From contig NZ_AP023033.1 of NCBI RefSeq assembly GCF_019670125.1, positions 2,965,001 to 3,029,000 on the forward strand: a stretch of DNA of 64,000 nucleotides, read 5' to 3'. This document shows, one piece after another, positions 15,481 through 54,887 of the stretch. Source of the DNA: Agarivorans aestuarii. GTDB lineage: Bacteria; Pseudomonadota; Gammaproteobacteria; Enterobacterales; Celerinatantimonadaceae. Position 1 is the first letter of the stretch, and each line of letters begins with the position of its first letter. A program made the translations under genes and the position numbers. The notes beneath the pieces were generated by a model. That model was given only the letters and a program-made list of their open reading frames with translations, had not been told where the DNA came from and searched no databases.

Positions 15481-15570
15481 AAAAGTTTCTCATTTAACAA
15501 TCACTGCCTAGCAGTATAAGAAATTTTGTCGGAAAGTAATTTGATGCGGGGTAAATATTTTTTAAAACGA

Positions 15571-15605
15571 AAAATGCCTGATGCTTTTAAGCTATCAGGC
15601 ATTTT
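15571..15605 (-). terminator. Intrinsic terminator of the first micro-gene
   Basis: A 12-bp stem AAAATGCCTGAT / ATCAGGCATTTT, followed on the minus strand by more T. It lies about 100 bases past the stop of the 30-codon gene. The core GCCTGA/TCAGGC stem is shared with the terminator of the second micro-gene. Confidence 0.85.
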
Positions 15606-15703
15606 AGAACATTTGACTCATAGTGTATTCTCGCTCAGTTGACTGTCACTCTCTCGGCATTGCGAAAGGCTAAGTGCTAAGCCCACATGTTCAAATGTGA
15701 GGA

Positions 15704-15796
15704 TTAACGGTGTAGGTTGTTAGAATCTGTTGCTTTGTAATCCGCAGCTTTAGTGAAGTAGTAAGTTGTATATAAAGAACCAAAGTAATCAAACAT
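15704..15796 (-). CDS. 30-residue small protein, paralog A
   Basis: This very short gene is supported by four things. The ribosome site is strong (AGGAGA, 7 bases before ATG). Residues 1-20, MFDYFGSLYTTYYFTKAADY, match 16 of 20 with the small protein at 16114-16212, and both end in (L/I)HR-stop. Several codon differences between the two are silent (TAC/TAT, TTA/CTT, TTC/TTT), which points to selection on the peptide. It has its own promoter and terminator. The peptide is aromatic-rich (six Tyr, three Phe) and not clearly a membrane segment. The function is unknown. The RNA has a roughly 100-base 3' UTR, so it could also act as a regulatory RNA. Confidence 0.8.
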   Translation of the reverse strand: MFDYFGSLYTTYYFTKAADYKATDSNNLHR

Positions 15797-15823
15797 AGTG
15801 TTTCTCCTAGAAACCAATAAAAG

Positions 15824-15874
15824 TGTGAACCAGCTCACGGAAAGAATAATAATGTGACGCAAGTCACATTGCAA
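15824..15874 (-). promoter_or_regulatory. Promoter of micro-gene A with two CRP-type dyads
   Basis: On the minus strand, TTGCAA (15869-15874) and TATTAT (15846-15851) form a promoter with a 17-base spacer. The spacer is filled by a perfect CRP-type dyad, AATGTGA-N6-TCACATT (15851-15870). A second, weaker dyad (TGTGA-N6-TCACG, 15824-15839) covers the expected transcription start. Sites in these places would repress and not activate. FNR-type half-sites (TTGAT) are absent. Confidence 0.7.
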
Positions 15875-15952
15875 GCTTGTTTTAGAGTTTTTGCTAAAAT
15901 AATTTGTTCAGGAAACGAACAAGACGGGAAGCGCGGGGAAAAGAATAAAAAA

Positions 15953-15981
15953 TGCCTGAAGGAGCGAGCTCGTTTCAGGCA
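15953..15981 (-). terminator. Intrinsic terminator of the second micro-gene
   Basis: The stem TGCCTGAA / TTCAGGCA, with GAGC/GCTC pairing in the loop, is followed on the minus strand by TTTTTTATTCTTTT. It lies about 130 bases past the 32-codon gene. Confidence 0.88.
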
Positions 15982-16113
15982 CTGGGGTTAACTTGATTCA
16001 TTACTATTATCTCTGCTGTCGTTTACCTTGCTCTAAGCACCCGAAACGAACATAAGTTGATAATGCTGAACCAATGATCGGATGAAGAACCATATATCCA
16101 CCTATAGCTAATC

Positions 16114-16212
16114 TTAACGGTGAATATCTTTGCGAGTTTCGCAATAAAAGTTGTAATCATCAGCTTTAGTAAAATAATACGACGAGTAAAGTGCACCAAA
16201 ATAATCAAACAT
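16114..16212 (-). CDS. 32-residue small protein, paralog B
   Basis: This is the sister of the small gene at 15704-15796: it begins MFDYFGALYSSYYFTKADDY and ends DIHR. It has the same ribosome site (AGGAGA, 7 bases before ATG) and the same control layout upstream. The C-terminal third differs and contains one Cys. The two genes lie 317 bases apart in the same direction, each with its own promoter and terminator, so this is a duplicated transcription unit and not an operon. The function is unknown. The layout recalls CRP-repressed dual-function RNAs of vibrios (VcdRP, with a peptide of about 29 residues), but homology is not shown here. Confidence 0.8.
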   Translation of the reverse strand: MFDYFGALYSSYYFTKADDYNFYCETRKDIHR

Positions 16213-16257: not shown

Positions 16258-16307
16258 CGTGATCCAAGTCACGCCTATAATTTAGTGTGACACTGGTCAC
16301 ATTTCAA
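16258..16307 (-). promoter_or_regulatory. Promoter of micro-gene B with two CRP-type dyads
   Basis: The layout is the same as for paralog A. TTGAAA (16302-16307) and TAAATT (16279-16284) flank a 17-base spacer holding TGTGA-N6-TCACA (16286-16301). A second dyad CGTGA-N6-TCACG (16258-16273) lies over the expected start. Dyad centres are 28 bases apart here and 29 in paralog A. Confidence 0.7.
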
Positions 16308-40886: not shown

Positions 40887-41195
40887 ATGATATATCTTGA
40901 ACATGAAGGTACCCAAATCGCTAGTCTCGAGATATTCAGGTCTGAACAGCCGTGGCACTACTGCGAGTTTTCACCTTGCGGAATTTTTAGCGTACATGAG
41001 GAGTTCTTTAAAGAGCTCCAAGAAGAATATCGAAACAATAATGGTGAAAATTGGGAAGAACATTTTGGCAAGCTTGTGGTAAACAACTATAGACTGGTTT
41101 CTGGCAATAGGGTGTCTGTACGATTTACCCTTTTATTTGAAGAAGATTACGTGAGATTGCGAGCACATTTTGAAAAAAAACACATAATCGGGTAG
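40887..41195 (+). CDS. Hypothetical protein, probably cut at its 3' end by an intron scar
   Basis: The 102-residue frame is acidic and aromatic-rich, with no known motif. ATGAGGACAAT lies before its start. Its last codons and stop fall in the border of the group II intron remnant (domain VI begins near 41190), so the natural C-terminus has probably been lost. The upstream CTGTTATGTG is of the kind that ends integron attC sites, but I see no full attC. Confidence 0.5.
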   Translation: MIYLEHEGTQIASLEIFRSEQPWHYCEFSPCGIFSVHEEFFKELQEEYRNNNGENWEEHFGKLVVNNYRLVSGNRVSVRFTLLFEEDYVRLRAHFEKKHIIG

Positions 41196-41738
41196 CCGGA
41201 GGTATCTAGCCTCCAGCCCCCACAACACCCTGCATGCGGCTCCGCACAGGGCGTTTCACTTAGAATGGTGAAGCTTTATCCATCCATCTCGTAGCGCAAA
41301 TAGATCTTGGGATTTCAAGTAAGCATTCGATAATGCCTGCTGTATCCCCGGTGTTTTTGAGCTCCTCCATGGGCCTTTACTGGTGATACCACACGCCACT
41401 GCGGCTTGAACATGTACCCCTCGGCGCATCAGGTTCCTCACTTTGGTTCTAGGCTTACGCCATTGTCGCCAATAGGCCATTCGTACTCTGCGCCTTATCC
41501 AGTGATCTAGATCGACACACAGTTGATAGCAATTAGCGATACCAAAGTAGTTTATCCAGCCTCGGAGGTATTGACTCACTTTAGCGAGTTGATAAGTCAT
41601 CGAGACGCCCCAGTTCCGGTTGGTAAGGCGCTTTAGCTGTTGTTTAAAACGGAGTAGCGTTTTTGCGTGAATTTGTAGCCGTCCCGCTTTGAAGGTAAAT
41701 CCTAAGAACTTACTCTTCGCCGTTTTAACTACAGGCAC
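41190..41738 (-). mobile_element. 3' remnant of a group II intron
   Basis: The minus strand carries the end of a maturase reading frame. After it come a domain V-like hairpin (41225-41252, CCCTGTGCGG paired with CCGCATGCAGGG) and a domain VI-like stem (41190-41220, GGCTGGAGG with CCTCCGGCT). The 5' part of the intron and most of the maturase are absent, so it cannot splice or move. Confidence 0.85.
41256..41738 (-). pseudogene. Group II intron reverse transcriptase/maturase, C-terminal fragment
   Basis: About 150 residues of the maturase X domain and C-terminal region are recognisable: FLGFTFKAGRLQIHAKTLLR, RLTNRNWGVSMTYQLAKVSQ, YLRGWINYFGIANCYQL, IRRRVRMAYWRQWRKPR, SNAYLKSQDLFALRDGWIKL. The catalytic reverse-transcriptase palm is missing. 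The break at about 41740 joins directly to an unrelated acetyltransferase fragment on the other strand. Confidence 0.9.
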
Positions 41739-54652: not shown

Positions 54653-54743
54653 TGGCGGAGGAGGAGAGATTTGAACTCTCGAAGGGCTATTAACCCTTGC
54701 CGGTTTTCAAGACCGGTGCATTCGACCACTCTGCCACCCCTCC
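54653..54743 (-). tRNA. tRNA-Ser(UGA), copy 1
   Basis: A 91-base tRNA with encoded CCA. The acceptor stem GGAGGGG pairs across to the 3' end, the anticodon loop CTTGAAA gives anticodon UGA, a long variable arm (AAGGGTTAATAGCCCTT) marks class II, and the T arm has GTTCAAATC. It reads UCA and related serine codons. Confidence 0.97.
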
Positions 54744-54796: not shown

Positions 54797-54887
54797 TGGC
54801 GGAGGAGGAGAGATTTGAACTCTCGAAGGGCTATTAACCCTTGCCGGTTTTCAAGACCGGTGCATTCGACCACTCTGCCACCCCTCC
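54797..54887 (-). tRNA. tRNA-Ser(UGA), copy 2
   Basis: Identical over 91 bases to the copy at 54653, separated by a 53-base spacer. The two are probably one transcript ending at the terminator at 54625. Confidence 0.97.

Follow-up and report, generated by a model that had tools for sequence, protein, structure and literature searches.

Two small open reading frames (ORFs) lie close together on the minus strand of the analyzed stretch of 64,000 nucleotides from Agarivorans aestuarii, referred to here as the window. The first (unit 1, 15704..15796) encodes a peptide of 30 amino acids, MFDYFGSLYTTYYFTKAADYKATDSNNLHR, and the second (unit 2, 16114..16212) one of 32 amino acids, MFDYFGALYSSYYFTKADDYNFYCETRKDIHR. 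An earlier note on this DNA had described them as a pair of paralogous micro-genes, and both frames were confirmed at these coordinates. As it had also said, 16 of the first 20 residues are identical between the two peptides and both end in HR followed by the stop codon. The spacing between AGGAGA and the ATG is 6 bases, however, and not 7 as had been claimed. The DNA differences are indeed mostly silent: the first 60 bases contain 15 differences, corresponding to 9.5 synonymous differences on 11.2 sites and 5.5 non-synonymous differences on 48.8 sites. Local alignment of the two peptides gave a score of 96, compared with a top score of 49 in 5000 shuffles.

Summed over all pairs from seven Agarivorans genomes, the unit 1 ORF showed a pS of 0.40 and a pN of 0.024 (ratio 0.06), and the unit 2 ORF a pS of 0.278 and a pN of 0.032 (ratio 0.116). 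These ratios bear out the proposal of selection at the peptide level and show that both units carry an ORF selected as a peptide, as would be expected of a dual-function RNA. The frame of the unit 1 orthologs was preserved across a three-base indel, and the ribosome site and the HR end were present in all 18 copies that were found. By these features, the two paralogous ORFs look like genuine small genes. Proteins of such size are frequently overlooked by gene callers.

Copies were sought in the 12 genomes of the family (f1) with a profile (A1) derived from nine peptides. Homologous frames might have been missing outside the locus or broken, which the earlier note had named as grounds for rejecting its reading; instead, intact full-length copies were found in 10 of the 12 genomes, at 18 places without a stop. 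All seven Agarivorans, both Aliagarivorans, and the single Alginatibacterium genome searched carry orthologs. Six Agarivorans genomes have two copies and the seventh (G006) has three, while Aliagarivorans taiwanensis (G009), Aliagarivorans marinus (G011), and Alginatibacterium sediminis (G007) have one each. The profile search of the family detected no intact copy in the two genomes of genus g3 (G008 and G010). The raw tally at E up to 1 was 11 of 12 genomes, before the removal of three weak partial matches in G003, G006, and G008 (E from 0.15 to 0.46, stops in two of them) that were judged to be due to chance. The third copy of G006 (L007, L020, L022), MFDYFGALYMSYYINKADEYRFNNQPTKDIHR, is also in tandem; it has its own operator block and terminator and a different 3' half.

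Searches beyond the family gave few further matches. Using the 30-aa peptide as a single query, both copies were recovered in their own genome and 14 of 60 relatives were listed, four of these weak and outside the family. A search of 345 genomes from the order gave 13 with a match at E up to 0.1, namely the 10 family genomes and three with weak partial matches (E between 0.03 and 0.06, one containing a stop), which were taken as chance. At class level (321 genomes), the own genome was found together with one partial match (E 0.0099), likewise attributed to chance. An exact-pattern scan of named genomes, which may omit genomes near the window and is blind to peptides not starting with MFDYFG, returned 15 stretches. 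Four were real (Aliagarivorans twice, Agarivorans, and Alginatibacterium); the other 11 were judged to be chance by their length, their sequence, and the lack of an exact CRP palindrome. The search of plasmids for the micro-gene gave no match. Taken together, the peptide family appears to be confined to Agarivorans, Aliagarivorans, and Alginatibacterium. Invariant across the nine distinct peptides are M1, F2, D3, Y4, F5, Y12, A17, H29, and R30.

No Pfam or NCBIfam model matched either window peptide or two of their relatives, and a text search of the literature for four peptide strings did not find them. The paralog family is therefore undescribed in the collections searched. To this extent, the suggestion of an undescribed small-protein family stands, limited to three genera and to a peptide that is only part of each unit. 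In the titles and abstract openings of Agarivorans literature on 'small protein' or 'small RNA', such genes are not named.

In Aliagarivorans, one copy has pstS on one side and a DyP-type peroxidase gene on the other, and a GNAT gene comes after the latter (gene names are our reading of the sequences). Identical neighbors flank the pair in Agarivorans, with an additional TPR gene on the pstS side. As Aliagarivorans has a single copy at the same pstS - micro-gene - dyp - GNAT locus, the most plausible origin of the micro-gene pair is a tandem duplication within Agarivorans. In an 8-kb stretch of Alginatibacterium, none of the nine window neighbors used as queries matched. Elsewhere in the window, the minus strand contains a match to a group II intron Rfam model (41187-41256; 48.2 bits, cut-off 40) and two nearby tRNA genes with equal scores (54656-54743 and 54800-54887).

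Conservation pointed to a promoter/operator block upstream of each ORF. The predicted block of unit 1 (15825..15874, minus strand) consists of a -35 element TTGCAA (15869-15874), a first palindrome TGTGACTTGCGTCACA (15853-15868), a -10 element TATTAT (15846-15851), and a second CRP-like palindrome GTGAGCTGGTTCAC (15825-15838), with transcription expected to start near 15839. In unit 2, the predicted block (16259..16307, minus strand, start likewise deduced, near 16272) comprises TTGAAA (-35, 16302-16307), the first palindrome TGTGACCAGTGTCACA (16286-16301), TAAATT (-10, 16279-16284), and the second palindrome GTGACTTGGATCAC (16259-16272). The same layout was found in all 18 copies: (i) the -35 element reads TTGMAA, i.e. 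TTG(C/A)AA; (ii) a CRP-like palindrome TGTGA-6-TCAC fills the 17-bp spacer; (iii) a TA-rich -10 element is placed at constant spacing 17 bp past the -35 element; and (iv) a second palindrome, GTGA-N-YTG-NN-TCAC, lies 13-14 bases past the first, over the predicted start. TTG, TGTGA, and TCAC are invariant. The distance from the second palindrome to the ATG ranges from 25 to 50 bases across copies; thus, the leader is free and the block rigid.

Across 340 genomes of the order, the operator pattern matched at exactly 18 places, all of them at micro-genes, and at none in a backward control; as the pattern was built from these copies, the result shows specificity and is not an independent discovery. 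A plain consensus promoter scan of the region gave 6 promoter-like sites compared with 4.2 (sd 1.9) in shuffles, which is not above chance and thus alone no evidence for promoters. It is the conservation over 18 copies that backs the earlier proposal of a separate promoter and terminator for each ORF. Both units are presumed to be transcribed and translated. The palindromes resemble the CRP consensus and we take them to be putative CRP sites. Judging from this consensus and from their position over the promoter, binding of cAMP-CRP to the palindrome between -35 and -10 and to that at the start would most likely repress both units, so that their expression would be expected while preferred sugars keep cAMP low. 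A relative of the Crp/Fnr type could use the same palindromes instead. Class I or class II activation by CRP was weighed by eye on the copy sequences and judged unlikely, since no -10 element at a suitable distance was seen in all copies.

Downstream of its ORF, unit 1 contains a conserved 3' RNA module (15608..15703, minus strand) and a predicted intrinsic terminator (15569..15607, minus strand) with 14 pairs, one of them changed on both sides. From the stop codon onward the sequence reads TAATCCTCACATTTGAACATGTGRGCTTAGCACTTAGC, with block A corresponding to alignment columns 7-41; block B, CTGAGCGAGAATACACTATGAGTCAAATG, has few variable positions and follows 22 to 35 bases after TAATCCTCACATTTGAACATGTGRGCTTAGCACTTAGC. 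Block A differed in 6 of 735 base comparisons (0.8%) and block B in 18 of 624 (2.9%), compared with 40% per synonymous site in the unit 1 ORF. Columns 42-70 between the blocks showed 135 differences in 456 comparisons and the terminator 65 in 724. The blocks are able to pair (ACAUUUGA with UCAAAUGU, and GCUUAG with CUGAGC) around a hairpin, and RNAalifold likewise paired block A with block B and folded the variable part between them as a hairpin.

In the module and terminator, 97.8% of the pair cells were kept, compared with 31.5 to 41.6% in slid controls. Three of 45 pairs (two in the hairpin, one in the terminator) were changed on both sides, a number reached by 9 of 500 shuffles; the number of pair types was reached by 14 of 500 and the covariation score by none of 500, in an alignment with only five distinct rows out of seven and for related sequences, which can exceed such shuffles. 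The A-B helices are nearly invariant, so most of their pairs provide almost no covariation evidence. Four distinct inner sequences fold to the same outer helix (z -1.58, -3.71, -2.23, and -0.74), and the folding of unit 1 is energetically unremarkable (whole unit z -0.88, 3' part z -0.23). When run on 12 sources, a covariance model of the module matched the window, L118, and G006 (two overlapping loci), and it was absent from the five Aliagarivorans and Alginatibacterium loci searched. Two weak matches on the reverse strand, at the window terminator (E 0.0033) and in L118 (E 0.26), were set aside. No Rfam family reached its gathering score over the gene-pair stretch; the best match below threshold (22.8 bits, cut-off 48) was at the unit 1 terminator.

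The 3' parts of both RNAs were also compared with four PTS start regions from the window's genome (two of HPr type, one of these with an uncertain TTG start, and two of EIIB). In eight pairing tests by whole-duplex folding, which may miss short seeds, z ranged from -1.47 to +1.33, no better than shuffles. For unit 1 as a regulatory RNA, the evidence is thus a conserved module with some covariation, and none of the four candidate targets tried was predicted to pair with it better than shuffles.

Unit 2 has a different 3' part. Here, a second ORF of 28 amino acids, MVLHPIIGSALSTYVRFGCLEQGKRQQR, is preceded by AGGTGG (16007..16093, minus strand) and is intact in all seven Agarivorans genomes. Its pN/pS across these genomes was 0.33 with a pS of 0.126, and at such a low synonymous rate this ratio is compatible with constraint on the peptide and on the RNA alike; peptide selection is possible, with RNA constraint as the alternative. 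The search for this ORF listed 8 of the 12 family genomes, and weak extra matches in G001, G005 (Agarivorans sp. Toyoura001), and G007 were inspected and set aside. The tail of unit 2 (15946..15989, minus strand) consists of TTAACCCCAG and a predicted terminator, TGCCTGA-15 bases-TCAGGCA with a T run. All seven copies have this perfect 7-bp TGCCTGA/TCAGGCA stem, a loop of 14-15 bases, and a T-rich run. The C-rich stretch reads CCCC in five of the seven genomes, and CCC and CCTC in the other two. The fold energy (z -1.81) is slightly better than that of unit 1, and by eye the tails of the two units are alike (ATGA-TCAA, then GCCTGA). Terminators were located by script in 12 of the 18 copies (the unit 1 orthologs, the third copy and unit 2 of G006, Aliagarivorans, and Alginatibacterium); owing to its loop limit, the script returned nothing or a neighboring palindrome for unit 2 of six genomes. 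A first consensus scan with a loop limit of 8 lists neither window terminator. The Aliagarivorans micro-gene (L009, L010) is followed by a 33-codon ORF that has a GGAG site (translated by eye), MQQTITSTRPTTFACGGSVYRLPKPKEQGNEKS, for which no Pfam or NCBIfam family match was found. The CRP palindromes, the second ORF of unit 2, and the conserved 3' RNA of unit 1 extend the pair beyond what the earlier note had described.

A simpler reading of these 3' parts would be that both units are ordinary mRNAs under CRP control that encode small proteins, in which the 3' part of unit 1 forms stability or terminator structures, that of unit 2 is a second cistron, and neither acts by base pairing. In its favor, unit 2 and the Aliagarivorans unit have, in place of the unit 1 module, a second ORF whose ribosome site is plausible, no PTS target signal was present at the four start regions, and fold energies are unremarkable. 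Blocks A and B, however, are conserved beyond the need of a stability hairpin, including the unpaired UAAUCCUC before the stem. We consider this reading unlikely, although it deserves serious attention.

Spot 42 / SpfP and AzuCR of E. coli are RNAs with a role in carbon use that encode a small protein as well. SgrST, as discussed in a report on VcdRP (PMC8672173), is of the same kind. The Agarivorans units share the proposed carbon link and the small protein with these RNAs, to which similarity was sought through Rfam and NCBIfam/Pfam only, with no match at the cut-off. According to that report, VcdRP of Vibrio cholerae is a CRP-repressed transcript of 306 nt, whose 29-aa peptide VcdP binds and activates citrate synthase; with VcdP residues 15-18 changed to alanine, citrate synthase was no longer efficiently activated (PMC8672173). 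The seed of VcdR, four C, was conserved in all species tested, and the CRP site is located upstream of the -35 element (PMC8672173). The similarities comprise a transcript of ~300 nt, a peptide of 29-30 amino acids, a conserved 3' part with terminator, and a CRP site in the promoter region, represented in Agarivorans by the CRP-like palindromes of all 18 copies; the Agarivorans units, too, would be expected to be made at low cAMP. The two differ in that the peptides have no detectable similarity, the Agarivorans units lack a strict CCCC seed, and their palindromes are inside the promoter (spacer and start), whereas the Vibrio site is upstream of -35. The Agarivorans units are also located at pstS-dyp, in contrast to the inspected VcdP loci by pepD, and they are tandem copies with different 3' halves and a function predicted from sequence.

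Relatedness to VcdP was examined at several levels. The VcdP model NF053523 (cut-off 50 bits) gave no match for the two window peptides and two relatives, whereas scores of 63 and 65 bits were obtained for VcdP-like peptides from other families. In the comparison of the micro-peptide profile with a VcdP profile, hhalign returned a probability of 0.2%, and in each of 12 pairwise tests at least 266 of 2000 shuffles reached the observed score; 23 pepD loci were scanned for the VcdP comparison peptide, seven of them more closely. Between the stop codon and the terminator end of unit 1, CCCC was absent in all seven genomes. At E 0.01 or less, 29 of 340 genomes of the order contained VcdP, and in 22 the score exceeded the cut-off. 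Family f21, very probably Vibrionaceae, accounts for 23 of the 29; none was found in the 12 genomes of f1. On the grounds of model, profile, pairwise shuffles, seed, and locus, we rejected membership in VcdRP. Perhaps the micro-gene units work like VcdRP. Outside f21, VcdP-like peptides were seen above the cut-off in two genomes of f10 (L042/L081 of G020 and L075 of G044) and below it in f25 (L048, L100, L102), e.g. MPGSNSTYWFAPSLYTQGFSYPNPFVTRR with 18.9 bits, which in L048 is upstream of pepD with a perfect CRP palindrome nearby. VcdRP may therefore be wider than one family.

A diverged VcdRP would still be conceivable, with the peptide as a remote VcdP whose SLYT-like stretch mediates the activation of citrate synthase and the CCCC of unit 2 as the VcdR seed. 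The similar size, the CRP site, the order of small ORF, C-rich stretch (unit 2), and terminator, and the finding of no VcdP in any of the 12 family genomes would agree with such an origin, as would VcdP residues 15-18, counted as VYTS in the VcdP of a searched genome, beside SLYT in unit 1. Against this, neither model, profile, nor pairwise comparison connected the peptides, CCCC is lost in two of seven unit 2 copies, the locus is different, and the palindromes are within the promoter; we regard descent from VcdRP as improbable. Finally, chance alone can produce short frames, the 3' RNA of unit 1 shows stronger conservation than the synonymous sites of its ORF, and the second ORF of unit 2 could be leader-controlled, but chance ORFs in two conserved non-coding RNAs, or leader peptides, are very hard to reconcile with the low pN/pS of both ORFs, the frame-keeping indel, the ribosome site and HR end of every copy, and a unit 1 in which no further gene was seen ahead of the terminator.

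The explanation that we favor, with moderate confidence in the full model including a dual-function unit 1, is that the units are catabolite-linked peptide/RNA regulators, repressed by CRP and duplicated in tandem in Agarivorans. The pair would give rise to two RNAs of ~270 and 330 nt from units that lie in tandem and are transcribed separately, and each RNA would encode one of the related peptides of 30-32 amino acids. By analogy with VcdP, the peptide probably has a partner protein in central carbon metabolism to which it binds. For unit 1, a dual function is most likely, with the conserved and folded 3' part working as an RNA, and unit 2 would contribute the second small ORF.

More tentatively, and with odds that we would place below even, the units may represent a modular family, in which the CRP double-operator promoter and the peptide are kept, the 3' half is exchanged between copies, and the resulting carbon regulators take the place of VcdRP in this family. 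If this holds, unit 1 would have a structured RNA as its 3' half and unit 2 a second small protein, with other parts in the third copy of G006 and in Aliagarivorans, and tandem duplication would build a small set of peptide-plus-RNA carbon regulators.

To our knowledge, only a small number of RNAs regulate both through an encoded peptide and as RNA. As CRP-controlled RNAs with conserved 3' parts, the units look like a kind already known from VcdRP, and in the tandem paralogs the peptide and the 3' part can be tested separately. A CRP-linked family in a marine genus that has no detectable similarity to VcdP, and whose genomes gave no VcdP match, would suggest that peptide-plus-RNA control of carbon metabolism arose more than once.
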